DNA from: Cochliopodium minus
Lineage: Eukaryota; Discosea; Himatismenida; Cochliopodiidae
Assembly (NCBI GenBank): GCA_024220525.1
Contig: JAMYWO010000108.1
Coordinates: 91,329 to 139,232, forward strand
DNA: 47,904 nucleotides
Direction: 5' to 3'
The notes beneath the pieces were generated by a model. That model did not search any database. It had not been told where the DNA came from and was given only the letters and a program-made list of their open reading frames with translations. The position numbers and the translations under genes are program-made. Shown here piece by piece: positions 3,816 to 46,603 of the stretch; within the stretch, counting starts at the first letter, position 1; each line of letters opens with the position of its first letter.

Positions 3816-4218
3816 ATTTTAAAATGTAAAACAACAAGTGTTTTTGTTGATTAATATTTTTTATCAAATCAAATATAAAAAGTAAAAAATAAAAAAAATT
3901 AAAATTTATTGTTGCCAAATATTAAGTAAAGTCCCTATTTGATAGATAAACACGGATTATGTAAGTAAAAGGCGTAAATAATCTACTATTATAAATCTAC
4001 CAGGAACTTGAAATATCATGACTGTTAAACCTTATTTTAAAAAGTTTAGTTTACAAAAAATTTTAAAAAAAGGGTTTTAAAAAATTTTTTTAATTATATG
4101 TTATATTCAAAGAATTATTTTTCAATTGTGGCACAGTTCATTTTTGCAATAATAGAAGAGATTGAAAGTTTTAATGTTACAAAAAAAATGAATATCATCT
4201 TTTCAGATTAAAAAATTT
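3816..4218. other. AT-rich intergenic stretch, no gene seen
   Basis: This lies between the convergent 3' ends of TAF11 and the EF-hand gene. I see only AT-rich sequence without a supportable reading frame or RNA fold. It presumably holds both polyadenylation regions. Confidence 0.6.
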
Positions 4219-13187: not shown

Positions 13188-16100
13188 TTATTTATTTCTT
13201 TGTTTAAAAATATTTCTCTGTTCTTCAATGTTGTCACTACAATGAGGTTGGATAAATTCCTCATCGTTCAAAAATGAAGTTACTATATCAATGGTTTTAC
13301 AATATTCTTTTTCTTTACAAATTTTGAGGAGAGATTGCACCAATGTATCAATGGGGGGTCTAGATTTGATGTTGTATTCGGTCATTGAATCCACCAAGTT
13401 TTTAATCTTTTCATCCAAATCAATTTCCATTTTCCAATGATGAATCATTCTCTCGAAAGTTATTCCCAATGAATAAACATCACCTTATTTAAAAAAAAAA
13501 ACATAATTTATTTTAAATTTCAATGATGTATTTTTACTTCCAAACGATTCTTCTTTTTTGTTTAATTCGCAAGGACTGAAAAGATCTGAATTAATTTCAA
13601 TCTTTTTCTTGTCATCGTTTAAATCATGAGAAGCACCAAAGTCAATGAGGATGAAATAGTATTGATTGTGTTTTGAGTAGAACAAGATGTTATCAAGTTT
13701 AATGTCTCTATGTAAAATGTTACTTTTATGGAGTTTATTGAGTTCGTTCAAAAGCAACAACATCATTCTGACAAAATTAATCTCGTTAAATTCAAAATCT
13801 TTTATCTCATTTTTCTTAAACGAGCACAATGATCCACCTTTAAACAAATAAATTTTGAATTGAATGATTTTTAAAAACAATTTATAAAATTTTATTTTAC
13901 CTTCAATCCATTCCATCAATACGTATTTACCTTTTATTTCATTTATCTTGTCATCTAAAGTTCCAATAAAACGAGAAGTAGTCAGATGAGGAACTTTTTT
14001 TTCAAGATTTTTCAAAATTTCTATCTCTAAATTCCAAAAATTTGTTGCTATTTCATCATTGTTTAATCTCTCTTTAATTGCAACAAATGTATTGGTACTT
14101 AATTCTTTCATTTTAAATAATCTTCCAAACCCTCCTATTAAATAATAAATAATAATTTATTTTAAAAAATTTTAAATTTTTGTTTACCTTGTCGAACAAT
14201 TTTTTCAATTGCAAGTTGTTCATCGAAAAAAACATTCTTTGACATACCTATTATTAATATGTAATGAAAAAAAATGATTTGAATCAGAATAAGGGATCTC
14301 ACATTGATGACACTCTTTTATTTTATCAAAAATCAAACAAGTTTGAATACCACAATTAAAACAGATGAAAATATTGTTCTTTTTTGGTTTTTCTTGGATT
14401 GTTTTTTCATTGTGAGGGGAGATATGGAAAAATTCGTTGGTATTTCGATTTATTGTTTCAAGGTTTCCATTGATCTTTATAATTTCTTTTTTGAAATTGA
14501 TTTGTTCGGAAATAGCCCGACTTATCCATTGATTTATGAAAGACTGGATGGAGGAATGGATTGAAGAAAAGAATAAGTGTACATCTCCTAAATCAGATTT
14601 CAAATCAATTTTCATCACCACTTGATTGGTCTGATCATTTCGTTTGTGGAAAGAAAGATGCAAGTAGGTGACAGTTCTTGTGATGTCATTCTCTATGAAG
14701 TGGAAAACGAACCCATTCGTCCAATACATTTCATTTACCATAGTTTTTTTAGATTCATTCCCAACACAACTTTGTCTGATTCTCACGAAAAGCAATTTCC
14801 AAAGTGATGATGGTTTGAAAGGGAGGAAATACTCTATTTTCAACTCATTTTTGAAATCGTAATCTATTTCAAACAAATTTGGTTCTTTTGAACAAAGAAA
14901 AAGAGGAACTATGAATAACCTTGTAATCTTTAAGGAGGTTGTAAAAAAAAAAACATTTTTTTTTGAAAAAAATAAATTTATGATTTTTTAAAAGGGCACC
15001 TTAAGAGAGTGATTTTCTGTCAAATATTTGACAGGTTTGATTGGAATGATAAATTCAAATTGAGATAATAGTGCAACAAAGATTTCGTAAAATTTTCGAT
15101 TTTTCACAACTTTGAGGAACACATCTTGTTTCAAGTCATTTTCAGTAATGAACAAAAATTGTTGAGAAACAATGGGATGATTGTTGGAAACACTTGTCAT
15201 ATCAAACATTGGTTCTTGTTTTGAAATGTTTTCCAAGATACACTCTAATTTATCCAACAAATTAAAATAACTTATTTTGTCAACGTTGGATATTTTCATT
15301 TCATTCTTGTCTTTCCATATTCCCAGCAAACTTTCCTTCTTTGAATTTCCTTTCAGCCAACTGATCAATTTTGTTGTTTCAATTTTGACGGGGCTGTTGG
15401 AAGGTAATTTGTTGTGAATTCCTTGAATCACAATTTGGATTTTCTTTCTTCCCAAATCCAAAATTTTTTTGAAAACTTTTTTTTAAAAAATAAATTAAAT
15501 ATTCCAGAAAGAAAATTCTCTAAAAAAAAAATATGAAAAAAATAAAATGTAAAAAAAATGGATTGATTTTTCACAAAATAAATTAATAATTTTTTAAAAA
15601 TAATATTAAATATTTACATAGGTTGAACCATTGAGGATTTGTAATGATCACATCTTTAAGTAGATCATTTTTGATGTACACAATGAAACCAAGTTGGTTC
15701 AAATCAGAAAGAAAATTCTCTAAAAATTTTTTTTTGGAAGTTTCTTTTTCATTTACATCTCTCTTCTCCAAATCTAATTTATCCAAGCCACTCTGCTCCT
15801 CCAGTTCAACATTTTCTTTAAATTCATCAAATATGAACGTTTTTAAAGCTTTAACACTAATGAAGGGCACTTCTTTTTCGTCCTCGTAATCATAAGAATC
15901 GACAATTCCCTCGTTTTTATTTGCAAAAAAATAAAAAAGGCTATCGAAATAAGATTTGGATCTCTCATTGACAATTCTGTATTTCTGTTTGAATTGAGAC
16001 AACTTTTCAATTGCTTTTATTATCATTTGATGTTTAGGGGTTGTTTTTACTGAATTTTCAACTTTGTTGTATTTTTTTGAGATTAACTCGTAAAGTTTTT

Positions 16101-17532
16101 GGATTCCTGATTTATTCAGATCGAGTTCTCTGTTCATAATGATGGTGAAAACAAAATTTTCGTTTTTGAGTTTTTCGGTATCACTGTAGTAAATGTAATC
16201 AATATCGTAGTATTTAAAAGAATGAAACTTTAAGGAGATTTTGTTTTCTTTCACAATTCTTGTTATCACTTTGAAAAGTAATGAATTTAAAATTAACATC
16301 AATTAAAAAATGAAAATAAAAATTTTATTTAATCAAAAAAATAATCAGAAAATAATTTAAAAAAATTTTTTTACAGTCATTCACATCTTTGATTCTCTCG
16401 AGAATTACATCTTTTATGGTCTTTTTAGAATCATTAATCCGATTTATTTCCCTTTGGATTTGCAAAGATGAAATCAACAAATCAAATTTAGTGGCAATGA
16501 GAATAACAGGTGAGTGGTGGCCAATCTGTGTTTGCAAAAAATAAAACCAATAAAGTAATTTGTTTTGACTTTCTAGTTCCTTTAAATCAATGGAAATGTC
16601 GAACAAAAGCAAATAAACAGAGCTGCTTTGAAAGAAAAAAGAGTGGATAACATGATACTCTTCATGTCCTGCGAAATCCCAAAGTGAATATGTGCTATTT
16701 GTTTTTTTGTCTTCCCATTTGTATATTTCTACCCCATGTGTCATGTCTTCTTCTCTTTTATCTGACAATACTAACTTGTGAGCATTATTGTTTTCGTTGT
16801 CATCTACAGAACCCATCAACCTTCTTTTTAATGTTGTTTTACCAACATCCCTTTTATGCAATGGAAAAATTTCATTTTTTTTAACAAAAATTAAATAAAA
16901 ATTAAAAAAAAAATTTTTTTTAAAAAATAAAATTTTAATAAAAAATAAAAATTTTTACTTGTTTCCAACAATCATCAACCTTACTCCTTCAAAGGTTCTT
17001 GTCCTGCTCAATTCTTCTCCTTTTTCATTGTATTCAACATTATATTCAAAATTATTTTTGTCTATCAAAATTCCTATCCCAAACTTGAGCCCATTCTTTA
17101 TCACTCCATTAAATAATTCCCCATTTTTCACAACTTTTCCTTTTCCATCCCACTCAATACCCTTTAATAAATCTGTAATTAATAATCAATTTAATAAAAA
17201 AAATTTACATATTTATATTCTCCTTCCCAATAAATGTCTTCTTTTGTTTCGTACTTTTTTGCGTATCCGTGGGGTATGATGGAACATATTGCGTCTCCTT
17301 CATAATTATTTCCATCAAATTGAAATTTGACATTCTTAACTATCTCTTTTTTTTCCAATTTGATCAAAAACTTCATTTCTTTTACTACTTTGAGGGAGAT
17401 TTCTTTATTTTCCTTGAAATCTTGATATCTTAACTCAGCAACATTTTCTGGTTTGATAGAAGGGAAGTTTTCTTCAACACATCTTCGAAATGAAATATAA
17501 GTGCCCTCAAGGTAAGAATTAGAAACACTCAT
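13188..17532 (-). CDS. Roco family kinase: MORN repeats, Roc GTPase, COR, zinc ribbon, protein kinase
   Basis: Ten exons (17532-17209, 17161-16959, 16850-16375, 16268-15618, 15475-15000, 14927-14303, 14247-14188, 14134-13901, 13837-13538, 13483-13188) join in phase to give 1214 residues. Residues ~75-155 are MORN-like (YEGDAI, YWEGEYKYGIEWDGKG, FGIGILID). The Roc GTPase follows with P-loop VGNKDVGKTT formed across an intron, WDFAGHEEY and ATKFDLL. COR spans about 335-860. A C4 ribbon (ICFNCG and ECHQC) precedes the kinase, which has GGFGRLFK, AIK, ILHRDIKLDNIL and LIDFGASHD, so it looks catalytically competent. Roco proteins such as LRRK2 and Dictyostelium GbpC are large signalling GTPase-kinases, usually with leucine-rich repeats before Roc; here MORN takes that place. 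It lies 171 bp downstream of the Rac-like gene. Confidence 0.9.
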
Positions 17533-36416: not shown

Positions 36417-36588
36417 AAGAAAATTTCTTTTTTTTAAAATGAAAGAAATCTTTGTTTATTATTTGTAACATTTAATAAATTATTATTATTTTATGATTTT
36501 TTCATTTGTATCAAAAAAATTCATAAATGTATTAAAAATTAAAATAAAAAAAAACAAAACCATTTTGATTTCAGGGAAAAATAAAGAA

Positions 36589-37800
36589 ATGACAAATGTC
36601 ATTAACAATTTATACAAAAATGATAGAAATCAAAATGATATATGGGATATTGATTTGGGCAAACAAAAAAAAATTATATACTTCATAGGGAAAACAGGTG
36701 TTGGTAAAAGCACTATTGCCAATAATTTAATGCGGGAGGTTATTTTTCAATCAGGGATCTATCCAAGAAAAAAATCTAAACACTATGATATTAAAACTAA
36801 AATTTATTACGAGATTTCTATGGTTGATACTCCTGGTCTTTCTGAAAAAGAAAAAACTATAATTGAAACCGAGAATATTTTTAGAAAACTTAAGAAAAAT
36901 GGGCTGGTAAAATTATTTTTTGTAGTTACTCTTGATGGTGGGGTTCAAAATGATATTGCAAAAATTAATTCTTTTATGGACAAATTGGGGAGCAACTTTG
37001 AATTTGGGATCATCATTAACAAGGTTTCCAAACGATTATTGAATAGAAAGAATACTCAATATAATATGATTGCTAATCTTTTGGATCAATTTAATGGAGG
37101 GAAATATAGAACTCATCATATTTTTTACTTGGAAAGAAAAGAGGAGATAGACGATCTTGAGAACAAATTGTTCAGGTCTTCCCCTGAATTAAGCCATTTT
37201 GTGGATCGAGTTGATTTCAATTGTGAAAAAAGTCTTCAAAAAATTTACAAAAATGGCAGCAATTTTACTAATCATATTGATAACTGTGATTTGTATTCCT
37301 TTTTAAGTAGTCTTGAAATTGGTTACTATTACTTTAAGATCAAAAAGATGGGTTATGAAAGTCTTGAAGAATTTTTAGAATTAGATCCAATTGATTTGAA
37401 GCTCATTTTGACTTCCTTTCCTATTTCAATATTACATCAGAAAATGATAATGCATGAAACGTACAAATTTAAAGTACTATATATTCATAACATTTTAATT
37501 TTCTTAAAATTTTGTTTCACATTAATTTTTTTTTTTTATATCTAGTTCACCGATGTATGGAGTTTTCTCAAATTTTTAAATTGTGGAAGATTTTTATGTG
37601 AATTTATTCATAGAAATTTTACCACCCTCGAACATCTCAAATCTCTTACTTTACAAATTCTCAAAGATATGCAAGTGGGTGAAATCTACAGGCTAATCAT
37701 CATGAAAGAAGTCAAAAGATTGAGAGGAGAAAATCCTCCTCCCTTAAATATCAATATTAACAAGTATTTAGATTCACATCTCATTTTAATGAAAAATTGA
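36589..37800 (+). CDS. AIG1/GIMAP-like P-loop GTPase with tandem SAM domains
   Basis: Two exons (36589-37473 and 37546-37800) give 379 residues. Motifs are a P-loop IGKTGVGKSTIANNL, switch II region MVDTPGLSEKEK and a G4-like IINKVSKR, in the order of the AIG1/Toc/septin-like GTPases. Residues ~225-295 form a SAM-like domain (YSFLSSLEIGYYYFKIKKMG, LDPIDLKLIL), and a second follows the intron (FTDVWSFLKFLNCGRFLCEF, LKDMQVGEIYRLIIMKEVKR). GIMAP-type GTPases assemble on membranes in immunity. SAM domains usually oligomerise, so this may be a nucleated scaffold. The start is the first Met of the dense coding region; an in-frame ATG at 36493 would add 32 unlikely residues. The paired SAM tail and the intron between them are shared with the NLR-like gene at 40381. 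Confidence 0.8.
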
Positions 37801-37980: not shown

Positions 37981-40149
37981 ATGGAGAATGACTATGAAAT
38001 TTTCTTAGGAAACCTTCCCCACAAAATAAAAGAAAGCATAAAAATAAAATTTAAAACTAAAAAAATTCTTTTGGATAACTTTCTAAACGAAGAACCCATA
38101 CTATCTCACATATTTGGGGAAGAAACAGAAGCTCAAGAAAAATTTTATTGGAGTATTTATCAAGCTTTGGTAAAAATCAAATAAAAATTAATTTTAAATT
38201 AATCTTTCTTTTTCAAGGATTCATCCTTATTTCAACAAATAGTAAACAGAGAGGGGGATAATAAAGGAAAATTTTTAGACACATTTTTTTTGGAAGAAGG
38301 TTTACTTTTAAAAGATAAAGACGTAAAAATTATGATTTATTCATGAAATTATAAATTTAAATTTAAATTAATATTTTTTTATTCAGGGATCCTTTTTTGA
38401 AAATCTGAAAGCTCTGAAATTCAAAAAATCTTTGAAAAAAGATGTTAATAGAACAACAATTGTGACCTCTGTATCAAATCAAAAAGATCTTATTCCATTT
38501 TATCAATTGTTGGAGGCAAATTTTTTTTTTTTTGATAATTACATTTTCTAAGAAACAATAAAAAAAAAAAGGGATTTGTTCTTGTTGATGATGACACATT
38601 CAACTGCAAATTTAAATCCAAGAATTTTATAAATGAGGATATCAATTCTGTGTATTTTGTGGACCATCATTTAAGTGATGAAGAATTAAATCAGGAAGAA
38701 AATTTGGAAAAGAGAATCGCATATTGGCTCTCCATTTCCAAAATTTTTATCATAAACGTCAATCATGGAGAAATAAATAAGAATAAGAAATTGTTGGAGA
38801 AAATATTGGAGATAAAGAAATTGCAAGAGGGAAAGAAAGATAGTGAAAATAATCCAACATGCTTATATATCTTGGTTCATAACGTCTATTTCCAAATTTT
38901 GAACGATGCTAAAGAAGAGAGATTGGAAGATATAGAAGATTTGCTTAAAAAGAATTTTCAATTTAAAGTAATTTATCTTACACCATCCCTCTCAAACTGC
39001 AAATCCATAAAATCGATCAAAAGAAATGATGTTTGTTCTTCATATTTTTTTATTTTGAAAGAATTGGTGAAAGAAATTTTTCTTTTCTCAAGTATCTCTT
39101 CTCTAAGCGAAGGATCAGGTGAAAGTGGAATAGGCTTGATGTTTTTCATGCGGAGATTTGAAGAAGCAATCAAAGGAGATATTGGGAAAATAAACAAGGA
39201 TCATCTTTGGGTTAATACAATGTATGATCTTCTTCACTATGCAGTTGATCAATGTATCTCGAGATATAAAAGGAAAATGAAAGAATATATCTCCTCAAAG
39301 AAAAGAATCTCTCAAAGAAACTTGATGAATCAACACAATCGGATCTTTATGGTTGAGATTATCCCTCTTTTCTTGGAGTTAGTGAGATATGTACCAAATA
39401 AATGCTTAAATCTTGTTGAATTATCCATCTCCAACTTGCACAAAAAACTCTGCTTAATTGAAACAAAACATTGTATATCCAAAGTAGCAGGAGGTATTTT
39501 TTCTATAATACTTCCAGGAAATCCGCAAGAAGTCCACGTTTCTATACTCCCAGAACAAATTGAAAAATATGAAACTCTTGGCACTTACCTCTTCAATAAA
39601 TTTCTTATTCAACATTATTTTGAGTCGTTGTTGTTTTACAAAAAAAGAATTGCAAGTGAAATCAACTTTGGATTTCAACTTGATCATCACAAGAAGATTG
39701 AAGAAATTGAAAAATCTTTGTCTGAAAGGAAATCCTTGGGTAGAAATTACGATAGTTGGATGGATAACAAAATCTCGGAATCATTTCAGATAATCCATTT
39801 GTATATTCCTATTCATCATTCCGAGTTCTTTGATTATTTGAAGAAAAACTTTCTCGTTCCCTTTGAAAATTATAAATCAATCACTTATGAGCAAGCTAAT
39901 GTAAGCTCTTCTCTCAGTCCAAAAAATCCCTTTCTCCATAAATTTAAGATCTACCATTTCATAGGCAAGCAAAAGAAAACTCTTTCCTACCTCGACAACA
40001 TGAACAGTACTGTTCCTATCTTAATCGAAAATGAAAATGGGTTATTTACTCTTAAGCTTATTGTTAAGTACTCTCACAAAGGAAAAGGAAAAGAATTAGA
40101 ATTTACTTTCATGGATAAGATTATCAAGGGTACTAATGTGAAAAGGTAA
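37981..40149 (+). CDS. Large unrecognised protein between the GTPase and NLR-like genes
   Basis: Four exons (37981-38169, 38218-38322, 38387-38515, 38572-40149) give 666 residues starting MENDYEIFLGNLPHK. The third intron begins GAG|GCAAAT, a GC-AG intron. I recognise no domain. The C-terminal half mixes helical segments (FMVEIIPLFLELVRYVPNK, YFESLLFYKKRIASEINFGF) and beta-rich stretches (SKVAGGIFSIILPGNPQEV, FTLKLIVKYSHKG). There is no P-loop, signal peptide or membrane segment. After the stop at 40147 coding-like sequence continues in another frame to 40286 (IYKKIQFEGEIPKNINF, FGKIHFHIPIFF). One more A in the AAAA run at 40141-40144 would connect it, so either a sequencing error or a real C-terminal frameshift is likely. 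Confidence 0.72.
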
Positions 40150-40380: not shown

Positions 40381-43300
40381 ATGAACACTGTTACTGATTT
40401 ATTGAATTTATTGGACAGAAATAAACTGATTTTTTGGATATCCAAAATAGAGAATCTGAAAGACTTCTCTTTTGAAGATTTTGAGACCTTTAATTTTAAA
40501 TTTCAAATCAATAAAGATATATTTGAAGAAATAAATGAAAAATGGGCTCACATAAAGGTATAAATTTGAAACCATTTATTTATTTATTTTTTATATTATT
40601 TATTTTAAGTGAAAATATTATATTCAAATCAAATAAAATCAAAAAACATCTCCATGTTAAATGAAACATTGATCAGAACCATTGTTTCCAATAAATTAGA
40701 ATCCAATCATTTTTATATAGAAATCATCTAAATGAGGAGTTCTTATTTCTTAAATTATTTATAAATAGTCCTCAAAATCATCCTTATTCATTTTTAATAT
40801 TATTCAACAAAAAAAAATTGTTGCATATCATCATCCTTACTATACTCTTTTCAACTACAGGTGAATAATAACTTGTTGAAAGAATTTGAAGAAAAGCTGA
40901 AAGAAATTTCCATGAATATTGAACCAAAACTACATAATTATCAAAATCTATCTCAAGATAAGAATGGAGATATATCAAATGAACTATCAATTGAATCTGT
41001 AAATTGAAAAAAATTATATTTTTAAAATATAATTGAATAATTTTTTCATTTCTTTGATTAGATATTAAATGATATGGATGAATATATCAATACAATGAAG
41101 GTAATAAAGAAAATTAACATCGATTGATTGAAAATAATTGAAAATAATCAAAATCAAAATATTTATTTTCAATCAGAGTGAGAATGTGTCACACCAGTTG
41201 TACTCAAGTTGCCATGCTGTGTACATTGGAATATCAAACTACGAGCATCTTTATTCTTTTAAAGGAGGGCCTGTGAACGATGTAGAAGCAATGAAAGAAA
41301 CTTTGGAGGAAGTAGGATTCCACAAAGAAAAAAACAACAAAAACGTGTTATTGAATGAAAATGCAACGAAAGAGAACATCGAAAACTTGTTTGAACATTG
41401 CTTCAACAAGTTCAATGGAGTAACCGAAGAAGAAAAAAGGCATTTCGGAGAATGTTTGTTTGTTATCTATTTCTCGGGACATGGGGACAAGAGTAAGGAG
41501 GGGATCGAGGAATCGTATTATATATGTCCTTATGATTACGATACAAGCAATAGAAAAACAAAAATAAATTTGCACAAATTAGTTATAGAATTGAAAGAAT
41601 TCAACTGTAGACATATTGTATTAATATTAGATTGTTGTTATGGAGGTGGAGTGTTTCGGTAATTTTTTTTTTTACAAAAAATTCTAAAATTTTTTTCATA
41701 AAATTTTTTTAATCTATTTTTTTAGGTTGAATTTTGAAGATTCTCAAATCAAAAGCGTGAGTACTTCTAGGGATATTCTTATGGTAAAAAATTCAATGAA
41801 AAAATCGATTTGGGCAATCACTTCAAGCGATTATAACGAAAAAGTAATCACCAAAAACAATAGCACAAACAAGCAGGTGGGATTCTTCACTCACGCCTTG
41901 ATCCAGACTATAAATCCAAAAAACAAAAATTCTATTTTCAAAATAGACAAGGCTGTAGTGTTCTTATCAGAAATATACATTCATTTGCAACAAATCATGA
42001 AATTTTCTAGTAATGAAGAATATCACAGACCTCAATGTAGTCCTCTAACTGACTCTCTCATTGACAATAATTATGGAGAACCTTTATTCTCAAATAACTT
42101 TGTTAACTACAAAATCCGGGTTTTGAAGAGTCATTATGATCAAATCGTTACCTCACATAACCAATTGATCCTCGAAAAAGAAAATAGAATACGATTGGGA
42201 CTAAAGAAAGACTACAACTCTCCTATCATCATGACGAATACTGTTCCTTTGTCTCCCAAAAAAGAGAAGAGCGTTTCTTCATCTCCTGAAATAGACGTGT
42301 CCAGTCTAAAAGAGGAATTAAAAATATTTATGAAAAAATATTATGAAAAAAATCTAGAAATTTTATCCATTGATAGTGAAAAAAGAAGAAAGGTTTTGTC
42401 TTCTTTTGTTTCTCTTAAAATAAAATCTCAAAACGAAAATGAAGAACCAAATGTTGAAAGTGAAGAGGTAAATAGAGTTGAATTAATATCACTTTTTGAA
42501 GGAATGAAGGAATTTGGTGAAAAGAGAATTTGGATGGAAGGGAAAGCGGGAATAGGAAAATCAACACTCTCCAAATTTATTTGCCATTTATTTCTGAACA
42601 ATGGTCTTTGGAAAGATACTTTCGAATTCGTTTTCTTTGTTGATTTGAAAAAAATCGAAGAAAATAGTGTGGATATCTTCAACTATATCTCCAAAAATTA
42701 TTTAAGAAATAATTTTGAGCCCAAAAAGTACAAAAAATTAAAGTCTTTGCTGATCGAAATGAACAATGAAAATAAAATTCTTTTTCTTTTCGATGGGTTT
42801 GACGAAATTGAAATTTCTTCCTATCAAAACAAGAATTTGTTGAAAATCATGGATTCCTTGAACGATCTATCTCTCTTTAGAAATATCATCATCTTTTCCA
42901 GACCAGAAACAAAGACAAAACTAAAGTCAATCTCTCAAAGATTAATTATAGAAGGTTTTGAAACAAGAGATATTTATTCTTTCATTGGGAAATATTTTGG
43001 AGATGGTCAAGACAACAAAAGAATTTTGATCAATTTTTTGAAACAAAACAAATCTATTGAATCATTTTGTCATGTTCCTTTGTTTCTCGAAGTAATTTGT
43101 TTGATCTTTCAAAGCAACAATCATGTGGATACTGAAAAATTCAAAGTTGGCAACATTTACAAAACACTGTGCAAAATTTTGTTGAAAAAATACATCCAAG
43201 ATGAATATTCCAGGAAAAATTCCAAAAAGATCATCCAAAAAATATCTTTCGATACATTTTTCAAGAAAACTCTCTTTATCTCTGAAAAGGAAATTGAAGT

Positions 43301-46300
43301 TGAAATCGAAATATCGATTGAAAATTATTCAAAGTTTTCAAAAGAGAAAATCGAGGAAAAGAATGAAATCATGGAGTCGATAAAAAGATGTGGGATCTTC
43401 AAGAAAACTAAATCTCATAAAATAAATAACCCTATTTATGAGTTTTCTCACTTCTCATTCCAAGAATACTATTGTTCAAAATTCGTGTTCAAAAATCTGA
43501 TTTATGAACATGACAATGAAAATAACAACATGTTGAAGTGGATTGAAAAAACAAAGAAAGAGTGGAAATATTCGACAATGATGTTCCCATTCTTATCTTT
43601 TTATTGTAGCAAAATTTATTCAACAGAATACTTTGATTTGTTCACTTTTGTATTTGGAGAAATATTCGACAAAGATTATACTTTCAGATTTGAAAATTTG
43701 CGCCAAATCTGCTTGTGTTTTGATGAATACTTTGGAGATTGTTACACAGAGGACAACATTTTGAATATCATAAAAGAAATTGAAAATAATGACAACATTC
43801 TCGAAATCTTCTCAAACACCAACAATCTTAGTCTCATTCAGTTTTTGTTGTCCAAAACAAAAATAAACAGGTTGAAAACATCATATGAAAAATCGAGTTT
43901 CATGCACTTTATTTGTAAAAATAACAATAATGTTGAAGTGATTAAATATCTCATTGAAAACAAAAGCAACCTAAACTTGAAAAACAAGAACGGCTACACC
44001 CCTTTCCATTTGGCCTGCTTAAATTATGAGATAAAGTTTGAAGTGATCAAGTGTTTGGTCGAGAACAAAAGTGATTTGAATTTGAAAGACAAAAACAGAA
44101 ACACTCCTTTTTTCTTGGCTTGCGGAACAAATGAAAACATGGAAATTATCAAATATTTAGTGGAGAATAAAGGGAATTTAGATCTGAAAGATAAGAACAA
44201 AAACACCCCTTTCCATTTGGCTTGTGAAACAAATGTAAACTTGGAGATCATCAAATTTCTGATCGAAAGCAAGAGTGATTTGAACATGAAAGGCTCTGAT
44301 TGGAAATCCTTCTTTCATTTGGCTTGTGAAACGAATGAAAATCCTGAGATAATCAAATTTCTCATCGAAAAGATCAGCGACACAAATCTGAAAGATAAAA
44401 AAGGAAGCACTCCCTTTCATCTCATCCAAAATAACCAAGATTTGAATGGCAATATCGAATTAATCAAGCTTTTCGTTGAAAAGAAGGCAGATCTTAACAT
44501 GGCAGACAAAAATGGGAGAACATGCTTTCACTTGGCTTGTGAAAACAACGAAAGTGTTGAAGTAATAAAATTTATGGTTGAAAACAAATGTGATGTGGGC
44601 TTGTTTGATAAAGACGGAAGAATTCCATTTCATTTGGCTTGTGAAAGCAACCAAAATATCGAAGTGATCAAGTATTTGGTTGAGATCAAATGTGAAATGA
44701 ATGTGGTAGATAACAATGGGAAAACACCTTTTCATTTAGTTTGCAAACACAATGAGAACGCTGAAATAGTGAAATATTTGATACAAATTAACGGAGATCC
44801 GAATTCAATGGACAACTTGGGAAAAACGCCTTTCCATTTGGCTTGCGAGAGCAATGAGAACATCGAAACAATTAAATATCTTGTTGAAAATGATGGCAGA
44901 GTTAATTCACTTGACAAAAACGGAAGAACTCCTTTTCACTTGGCTTGTGAGAACAACAAAAATGCGGAGATAATAGAGTATCTTCTCCAAAACCACAGTG
45001 ACATAGATACAACAGACAACTTTGGAAAAACACCGTTTCATTTGGCGTGTGCAAATAACACCAACATCGAGATCATCGATCTCCTCATCAAAAATGACGG
45101 AGATCTATATCTGGAAGACAACAATGGGAAAACCCCCTTTCATTTAGCTTGTGCAAATAACACCAACATCGAGGTAATTCATGCTTTGTATGAGAGTGGC
45201 AGCGATTTAAACGCAAAAGATAGAAACGGGAAAACACCCTTCCATTTGGCTTGTGGAACAAATAAAAACATTGAGATAATAAACTTTCTAATAGAAATCA
45301 AAAGTAACATCAATTTGAAAGATGACAACGGAAACACTCCATTTCATTTGGCTTGCGGAAGTAACAATGATGTTGAAATAATCCATTTTTTGATCGAAAA
45401 GAAAAGTGGCCTCAATGTGATCGACAACAATGGAAAATCTTGCTTCCATCTCGCTTGTGGGAATAACAAGAACTTTGAGGTGATCATGTACATGCTCGAG
45501 ATCAAATGCAACTTATTCTTAAAAGATCACAGCGGGAATTCTCCTCTCCATTTGGCCTGCATCAACGAAAACAAGTTTGAAATCATAAAGTATTTGATAG
45601 AGAATAAAAGCGATGTGAACTTAAAGGACAAATACAAGAACACTCCTTTTCATTGGGCTTGCATGAAAATCGAAAGTCTGGATACCATTAAGCTATTTGT
45701 AGAAAATAAAAGCGACTTTAATCTCAGAGACAAATATGGAAAAACTCCTTTTCATTTGGCTTGCGGAAGCAACAAAAACCTCGAAGTTATCAAGTATCTG
45801 ATCGAAAACAAGAGCAGCATGAATCTCAGAGACAAATATGGGAAGACCCCTTTTCATTGGGCTTGCGGAAAAAACAAAAACCTCGACATCATCAAGTATC
45901 TCATCGAAAACAAGAGTGATCTCCGTTTGTTAGATGGGAAAAGAGAGAACTTTCTTCAGATCATGCAAAAAAATTGGCTAATAAACAAAAATATCAACTC
46001 TGATTTTTACAAGTTTTTGATGGAGGTGTGAAAATTTTTATTTAAAATATCTTTTAAATAAAAATTTTTTTTAAAGGTTGGCAATATGAATAACTTTTTG
46101 GAAAGATGTGATTTACATAAGCGATTAGATGAGCTCATCATCCAAGGTTTTGTGGATATCCAAAACTTCAAGGAAACCAACGAAACTGAGATCACCAATT
46201 TGATGTTAAACCTTAAACTAGAAACTGCCCAAAAAAACATGATCTTGTTGGAGTGGAAAATACTAAAGGTATTTCTTGAACAAATTTTTTTTTTCATTTC

Positions 46301-46603
46301 AATATGATTTTTTTTGATTTGTTTTGATAGTTTTCTGATGTTTGGGAGTTTCTCAAGGAATTGGGTTGTGGTTTATATTTTTACAATTTCCTCTTCAATG
46401 GATATACTTCCCTTGGGTCTTTTAAACTTATCCAAATAGATGACCTTGAAAAAATGGGGATTGGTGCAAACCACAAAAGAACTATCATGAACAAGATAAA
46501 TGAGATGATAATCGAAGATGGTAATCACGATATAGTTCAAGTCAATGACACAATACAGGAAAATCAAGATTTTGAGAACTTGAAAAAAAGCGAAGATAAT
46601 TAA
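40381..46603 (+). CDS. NLR-like receptor: caspase-type peptidase, NACHT ATPase, ankyrin repeats, tandem SAM
   Basis: Seven exons (40381-40557, 40861-40998, 41062-41100, 41177-41658, 41726-46025, 46077-46268, 46331-46603) join in phase to give 1866 residues. Residues ~130-390 are a peptidase C14 (caspase/metacaspase) domain: HAVYIGISNYEH, CLFVIYFSGHGD with catalytic His ~220, and LILDCCYGGG with catalytic Cys ~272. Residues ~545-800 are a NACHT NTPase: MEGKAGIGKSTL (Walker A), ILFLFDGFDEIE (Walker B) and IIIFSRPET. Residues ~1000-1685 are 20 ankyrin repeats with consensus TPFHLACxxNxNIEIIKYLI. Residues ~1713-1866 are two SAM domains separated by a phase-0 intron. This is the receptor-ATPase-effector plan of NLR proteins, with ankyrin as the likely sensor and caspase as the likely effector. 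All key catalytic residues are present. Confidence 0.92.
43885..45940 (+). repeat. Tandem ankyrin-coding repeats (99-bp period, about 20 copies)
   Basis: Within exon 5 of the NLR-like gene, a ~99-bp unit encoding a 33-residue ankyrin repeat recurs about 20 times. Nearly all copies have PFHLAC, with Phe where generic ankyrins usually have Leu. Neighbouring copies are close at DNA level, especially the pair around 45720-45910 (both NLRDKYGKTPFH) and the pair around 45030-45175 (both CANNTNIE). This suggests recent unit duplication or homogenisation. Copies 1, 5 and 6 are the most divergent. Confidence 0.88.

Follow-up and report, generated by a model that had tools for sequence, protein, structure and literature searches.

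A Cochliopodium minus gene and its paralogues predict a paracaspase/metacaspase-type peptidase, a NACHT ATPase and ankyrin repeats in one chain

Our analysis indicates that the AT-rich genome of Cochliopodium minus (Discosea; Himatismenida) holds a family of genes in which a C14 peptidase, a NACHT ATPase and an ankyrin array are joined in a single polypeptide chain. The member described here lies at positions 40381-46603 on the forward strand of a stretch of 47,904 nucleotides (contig JAMYWO010000108.1 of the GenBank assembly GCA_024220525.1, positions 91,329 to 139,232), which was analysed at its full length and is called the window. The one-chain arrangement had been proposed from the sequence of the window (the original prediction) and is borne out, since it recurs in uninterrupted reading frames of paralogues. 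The protein carries the features of an NLR/NACHT-type STAND protein, namely a NACHT ATPase with Walker A and B motifs, superstructure-forming repeats at the C-terminus and an effector-type domain (C14) towards the N-terminus. We therefore regard it, with appreciable reserve, as probably a cytosolic NLR/STAND receptor in which nucleotide would control the output of the receptor's own protease; any statement about its biological role is held with less confidence than that.

The gene reads as seven exons separated by six introns, which were placed from the sequence, without RNA, and are all of the GT-AG type. The exons amount to 5601 nt in frame and encode 1866 amino acids followed by a stop, so that the phase-consistent seven-exon gene of the original prediction holds, with the junction on the SAM side as its least certain part. 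Introns and exons differ in composition (G+C 0.09-0.20 and 0.21-0.35, respectively); the first intron measures 303 nt and four others 62-76 nt. The parts of the gene are as follows:

40381..40557, forward strand: exon 1, a 59-residue N-terminal domain, family-specific, with no Pfam match over cut-off
40861..40998, forward strand: exon 2, a linker in the joined frame, with no Pfam family at E<=10
41062..41100, forward strand: exon 3, a linker of 13 codons, placed by its splice sites
41177..41658, forward strand: exon 4, the p20 (first) part of the C14 peptidase (PF00656, E=6.7e-15 on exon 4 alone)
41726..46025, forward strand: exon 5 as a whole, with the C14 remainder, NACHT, the post-NACHT region and the ankyrin repeats
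41726..41942, forward strand: start of exon 5, the C14 remainder (match over residues 131-351), continuous in the same frame in a paralogue
42525..43001, forward strand: NACHT domain (Pfam, E=2.9e-15)
43002..43880, forward strand: post-NACHT region with the motif FSHFSFQEYYC (strongest tblastn match among the paralogue loci at E=1.3e-63), by analogy a winged-helix/helical region
43881..45959, forward strand: ankyrin array of about 20 repeats (Pfam and repeat motif)
46077..46268, forward strand: exon 6, a weak SAM-like segment
46331..46603, forward strand: exon 7, a SAM domain to about 46510 and then a C-terminal tail, with the stop codon at 46601-46603

Comparison of the conceptual protein with Pfam-A placed all four expected domain types over the curated cut-offs: Peptidase_C14 at residues 131-351 (E=1.5e-15), NACHT at residues 546-704 (E=2.9e-15), 20 stretches of Ank, and SAM_2 at residues 1776-1836 (E=8.7e-8 in the whole protein, E=3.9e-9 on exon 7 alone). 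The intact catalytic dyad, the complete Walker motifs and the 20 ankyrin repeats that had been claimed for this gene are all present: the His codon stands at 41480-41482 in FSGHG and the Cys codon at 41636-41638 in LDCCYGG, while Walker A (GKAGIGKST) occupies 42540-42566 and Walker B (FDGFDE) 42789-42806. The claim of two SAM domains stood in part. The SAM domain of exon 7 is secure by Pfam and matches the SAM domains of an Eph receptor, ANKS1B, SASH1 and Caskin-1, but the segment in exon 6 is weak and stayed under the cut-off (SAM_NCD1, E=0.028). The top two matches of exon 6 among solved structures were SAM domains of SASH3 (E=0.0085 and 0.0094), and its AlphaFold2 model, made from the single sequence, is one long helix instead of a SAM fold, which we take as uninformative; we regard exon 6 as a possible second SAM. 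The ankyrin repeats are regular, with a 34-residue period in 16 of the 18 spacings between the 19 motif-anchored repeats. Compared ungapped, with two repeats at least one residue off register, these 19 repeats show a mean pairwise identity of 0.46 (maximum 0.76) and vary most at positions 16, 29, 32 and 11 of a 33-residue frame, a pattern that suits a binding array but does not prove one.

The fusion of the peptidase to the ATPase was examined across the whole assembly (44.65 Mb in 598 contigs). At least 26 places match NACHT, corresponding to 25 loci, as the two places on contig C296 are pieces of one, and at least 24 places match C14. A C14 match lies upstream on the same strand, at a distance of 2.5 kb or less, at 14 of the 25 NACHT loci, including that of the window; ten of the 24 C14 places have no NACHT at such strand and distance. 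We examined 20 + 5 stretches and left aside six further regions that hold C14 only or weak NACHT matches. At nine loci (L011, L013, L014, L015, L016, L018, L019, L020 and L027) C14 and NACHT both exceed the cut-off within a single uninterrupted frame, which continues into ankyrin repeats at seven of them (not L014 and L027). The L014 locus on contig C24 is 49% identical to residues 118-790 of the window protein and runs in one frame from C14 into NACHT, through the point that corresponds to the exon 4/5 junction. Thus the C14-NACHT-ankyrin fusion is not an annotation error, and the alternative of separate genes wrongly fused is ruled out for this part of the protein. Further loci resemble the window in having C14 and NACHT in neighbouring frames (L017, L022 and L029), and at L024 the two stand together with a weak C14 (25.7 bits versus 21.4).

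Other members differ in their make-up. TPR matches follow the ankyrins at L016 and L020; L037 has a C14 frame and then a NACHT-ankyrin frame, its NACHT, at 24.4 bits, falling short of the cut-off (26.7 or 26.9); L028 is NACHT-ankyrin without C14. At L036 (contig C42) ankyrin repeats precede a C14 domain with intact motifs, and a weak, degenerate C14 lies further on; the C14 match of L040 is devoid of the His and Cys motifs and is followed by repeats that look ankyrin-like by eye. At L030 (contig C306) pentapeptide and WD40 repeats accompany the NACHT and there is no C14 match; in this the locus resembles the cyanobacterial pentapeptide-WD40 variant described in the available portion of PMC3501461. 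Given these differing tails and the decayed members considered below, the family looks like a repertoire in turnover. A tandem pair of C14 domains (DCCHSG and DCCYSG) was observed at L038 on contig C17, each followed by stretches that appear cysteine-rich and zinc-finger-like by eye; no NACHT match was found on that contig. Of the seven NB-ARC matches in the genome, six fall at places already on the NACHT list.

The original prediction had called the peptidase caspase-type, and here the C14 fold and the intact dyad stand, whereas the affinity lies closer to MALT1 and the metacaspases. In an alignment of 14 C14 rows, exon 4 of the window included, the Asp of the DxC motif is present in 14 of 14, and 13 rows have the catalytic His (L024 is the exception). 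The 'IND' motif keeps its Asp in 12 rows, by a count made by eye; the window protein has both aspartates. Compared with solved structures, the profile of this alignment matched MALT1 first (3.6e-8), then MCA2 (1.3e-5) and metacaspases 1, 9 and 4, with a single caspase entry, an ancestral caspase-3/6/7 (0.0013), within the limit of E<=0.01. The peptidase side of a C14-NACHT profile ranked in the same manner: MALT1 5.5e-7, MCA2 1.7e-4, metacaspase-9 5.8e-4 and caspase-1 7.1e-4. This ranking leaves an Asp-specific caspase proper (C14A) unsupported; to judge from the profiles, the peptidase is of the paracaspase/metacaspase type rather than the caspase type. The two family aspartates, conserved in 12 and in all 14 of the rows, align with the aspartates that line the S1 pocket of MALT1 and MCA2. 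These S1-pocket residues, D365 and D462 of MALT1 and D95 and D211 of MCA2, confer specificity for a basic P1 residue. Since MALT1 and the metacaspases, and not the caspases, are the closest to this peptidase, cleavage after Arg or Lys is predicted, as stated for such caspase homologues in the available part of PMC7475262.

On the NACHT side, the nine-row C14-NACHT profile found NLRP3 as its best solved structure (1.6e-20), along with other NLRPs, NLRC4 and NAIP. Invariant in the nine paralogue rows are G-H (84-85), D134 and C136 on the C14 side, and G377, G380, G382 and K383 of Walker A, D458 and D461 of Walker B, and T492 and R494 on the NACHT side; the window protein carries the same motifs. 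The T-x-R motif is presumably sensor 1.

The chain begins with exon 1, which has relatives at six other loci of the genome. Five were found by tblastn, three of them at E 1.6e-5, 8.9e-5 and 3.6e-4 and two at 0.13 and 0.88, and the sixth (L027) was recognised by reading the translated frames; every relative opens with Met and has I-K or I-R as its last two residues, directly before a GT donor. When the copy at L013 was used as a genome query, all five matches at E<=1, itself and that of the window included, lay at C14-NACHT loci. Exon 1 matched no Pfam family over cut-off, and its alignment met nothing better than E=0.89 among solved structures. A SAM identity was unsupported as well: set against four rows of SAM or SAM-like sequence in a comparison of profiles, exon 1 reached a probability of 3.8% (E=0.011). 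The AlphaFold2 model, from the single sequence, has four helices at a mean predicted local distance difference test score (pLDDT) of 76. By these comparisons exon 1 is a small domain present in part of the C14-NACHT family.

Beyond this genome, protein searches with the window protein (7 matches), with L018 (29) and with the nine-row profile (68) yielded no protein listing PF00656 and PF05729 together, an absence that weighs little, as each search scored 7999 or 8000 candidates, as the profile search did not recover the known bacterial fusions, and as the domain lists of two profile matches (P0046 and P0087) are incomplete. One match of the profile, P0079 from Scytonema, lists C14 together with PF20703, a STAND model. 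The 29 matches of L018 are mostly fish NLRs, and PF00656 occurs in none of them. A scan of prokaryotes with the family profile returned seven loci, by NACHT-side residues only and through a single pattern, taken from the P-loop; in these seven no C14 match by tblastn went below E=2.0. This test, with its one P-loop pattern, lends no support to the idea that the fusion came recently from bacteria. NACHT-like frames matching the family NACHT were seen at L041 and L044 (Coxiellaceae, metagenome-assembled) and at L043 (a Chlamydiae metagenome-assembled genome), with no notable C14. Coxiellaceae and Chlamydiae are lineages with an intracellular life.

The original prediction saw in the gene a receptor and a peptidase in one protein; the fusion itself stands, and the plan has precedents in bacteria and fungi. 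Fifteen bacterial sequences combine a metacaspase with NACHT, metacaspase-NACHT-WD40 proteins among them (PMC3501461). Complex STAND proteins of bacteria commonly have enzymatic N-terminal domains such as metacaspase, and an all-in-one plan is perhaps ancestral (PMC4986451), all according to the accessible portions of these sources. Like the bacterial proteins (orthocaspases; PMC3501461, PMC7475262), the window protein has C14, NACHT and superstructure-forming repeats in one chain; the bacterial repeats are WD40, HEAT or pentapeptide in the excerpts at hand, whereas here they are ankyrin, a term absent from the main text of PMC3501461. Additionally, the nearest solved structure to its NACHT is that of animal NLRP3, which sets it apart from the bacterial metacaspase-NACHT proteins. 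In fungi, NLRs that carry a CHAT or S8 protease domain are tied to gasdermins in the consulted excerpts of PMC9815663 and PMC12881547. They, too, are eukaryotic NLRs that use a protease domain for signalling, and fusions of protease domains to WD40, TPR or ANK repeats are likewise reported, yet their protease is CHAT (PF12770) or S8 and adjoins gasdermin genes, while here it is Peptidase_C14. The term 'C14' is absent from the main text of PMC4986451, PMC9815663 and PMC12258605. NACHT-ankyrin proteins arose in parallel in winged insects and fungi, according to the part of PMC3499355 at hand. No eukaryotic C14-NACHT fusion was found among the listed open-licence PMC papers, judged by title and the start of the abstract, or in the portions consulted of PMC8195603, PMC4083563, PMC12258605 and PMC7539657.

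Two animal systems share parts of the plan. The animal NLRs NLRP3, NLRC4, NAIP and NLRC3 have a NACHT with Walker A and B, the sensor arginine, an N-terminal signalling region and C-terminal repeats, and animal NLRs recruit caspases via CARD or PYD. MALT1 (and, likewise, MCA2) has the C14 fold, the His/Cys dyad and the conserved aspartates of the DxC and IND motifs; MALT1 is without NACHT and is driven by CARD-BCL10 filaments. The single chain described here would do the work for which an apoptosome or inflammasome plus a caspase engages several proteins.

From these likenesses a mechanism can be proposed. The ankyrin array would bind a ligand or a guarded host protein, and the binding would free the NACHT domain for nucleotide exchange and oligomerisation, perhaps with assistance from the N-terminal and SAM domains. 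The peptidase domains, brought close to each other, might then dimerise and become active, in the way that MALT1 is activated by dimerisation on filaments. The active peptidase would cut after Arg or Lys in the receptor itself and in a downstream target, and the outcome may be signalling or regulated death. The original prediction had offered a role in immunity or regulated death as an inference, and it stays one here.

Several observations weigh against such a receptor-protease. In the genome search, 11 of the 25 NACHT loci have no upstream C14 match (L024 has its weak one in frame), and among the peptidases that are there some have decayed: L024 has lost the His, the C14 of L025 lies below the cut-off and that of L021 went uncalled. 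Protease action is therefore not required in every member. A pore-forming partner did not appear either, as gasdermin (PF04598) gave no match, but the control was equally silent and the result is uninformative. A pattern scan met no exon 1-like exon at nine other paralogue loci (L014, L017-L022, L024 and L025), the closest paralogue, L014, being one of these, and the exon 1 model had no Foldseek match. Thus an adaptor role of exon 1, given the pLDDT of 76, is only a guess.

It could also be that, in the manner of MALT1, the protein is a signalling protease: a small number of regulators, or else the receptor, would be trimmed so as to adjust gene expression, the response to stress or development, with no cell death involved. 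MALT1 is a signalling protease and is the nearest solved relative of the peptidase, and SAM and ankyrin arrays are typical scaffolds, as the named matches of the exon 7 SAM illustrate; nevertheless, tails that differ among members (ankyrin, TPR, SAM) and the decay of some members are more like a defence repertoire, although this is an argument from pattern. We consider a purely signalling role rather unlikely.

The junction into the SAM exons, across intron 46026-46076, is the weakest point of the gene model, and the SAM exons may belong to a separate or alternative transcript, the main protein ending after the ankyrins. The donor of this intron, GTGTGA, is unusual, as GTA starts every one of the five remaining donors in the model and also the six donors of the paralogous exons 1; the frame of exon 5, read through the donor, meets a stop after one codon (46029-46031), and an in-frame ATG lies close to the start of the exon 6 frame. 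Additionally, the SAM exons gave no tblastn match at E<=1 in the 20 paralogue stretches, but some paralogue gene ends may fall outside the stretches examined. The intron itself, at 51 nt, is T-rich, keeps the frame and is not much shorter than the four introns of 62-76 nt; were the SAM part a gene of its own, the two coding regions would lie a mere 50 nt or so apart. We thus judge a separate SAM transcript to be rather unlikely.

A receptor for allorecognition or incompatibility, comparable to the fungal HNWD NLRs, would be a family that diversifies for self/non-self with the protease as effector. The mutual similarity of the 19 repeats with their few highly variable positions agrees with this, and fungal NLR families with protease effectors exist, according to the excerpt of PMC12881547; still, we find it improbable. 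That adjacent genes were wrongly joined is barely credible: six introns were inferred without RNA, but the nine uninterrupted C14-NACHT frames and the continuous L014 speak against it.

The other features of the window, in order of position, are:

3894-4008, reverse strand: U5 spliceosomal RNA (RF00020, 47.7 bits)
13485-16954, reverse strand: a likely ROCO kinase gene, in which frames for Roc, for COR-A (under the cut-off) and for a protein kinase follow one another
36469-37545, forward strand: AIG1-type GTPase frame upstream of the receptor gene (PF04548, E=1.4e-9)
38539-40149, forward strand: an open frame of 536 residues directly upstream of the receptor gene, with no Pfam match at E<=0.01

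The U5 spliceosomal RNA marks the source of the window as eukaryotic, and together with the six introns it leads us to reject bacterial contamination at the gene locus. By eye the C-terminal part of the AIG1-type frame resembled a SAM domain, a likeness that the solved-structure search did not support. The 536-residue frame looks like a large GTPase by eye, and its one match among solved structures (E=0.46) is at the level of chance.

Animals keep the sensor ATPase and the caspase on different proteins, which adaptors bring together, and some bacteria were already known to have both in one chain. Described here is a eukaryotic one-chain family whose protease is near MALT1 and the metacaspases and whose NACHT is near those of NLRs. 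Our boldest proposal, which is less likely than not to hold, is that a eukaryotic and probably unicellular lineage evolved a multigene set of one-chain receptor-proteases, with a paracaspase-type peptidase built into an NLR and an undescribed N-terminal domain, for regulated death or defence against invaders. The family offers a simple system for the control of a caspase-fold protease by an ATP switch, and it is relevant to the question of whether the all-in-one plan was the earlier one. Occurring in a protist, it would also indicate that NLR-type repertoires with proteolytic effectors extend past animals, plants and dikaryan fungi.

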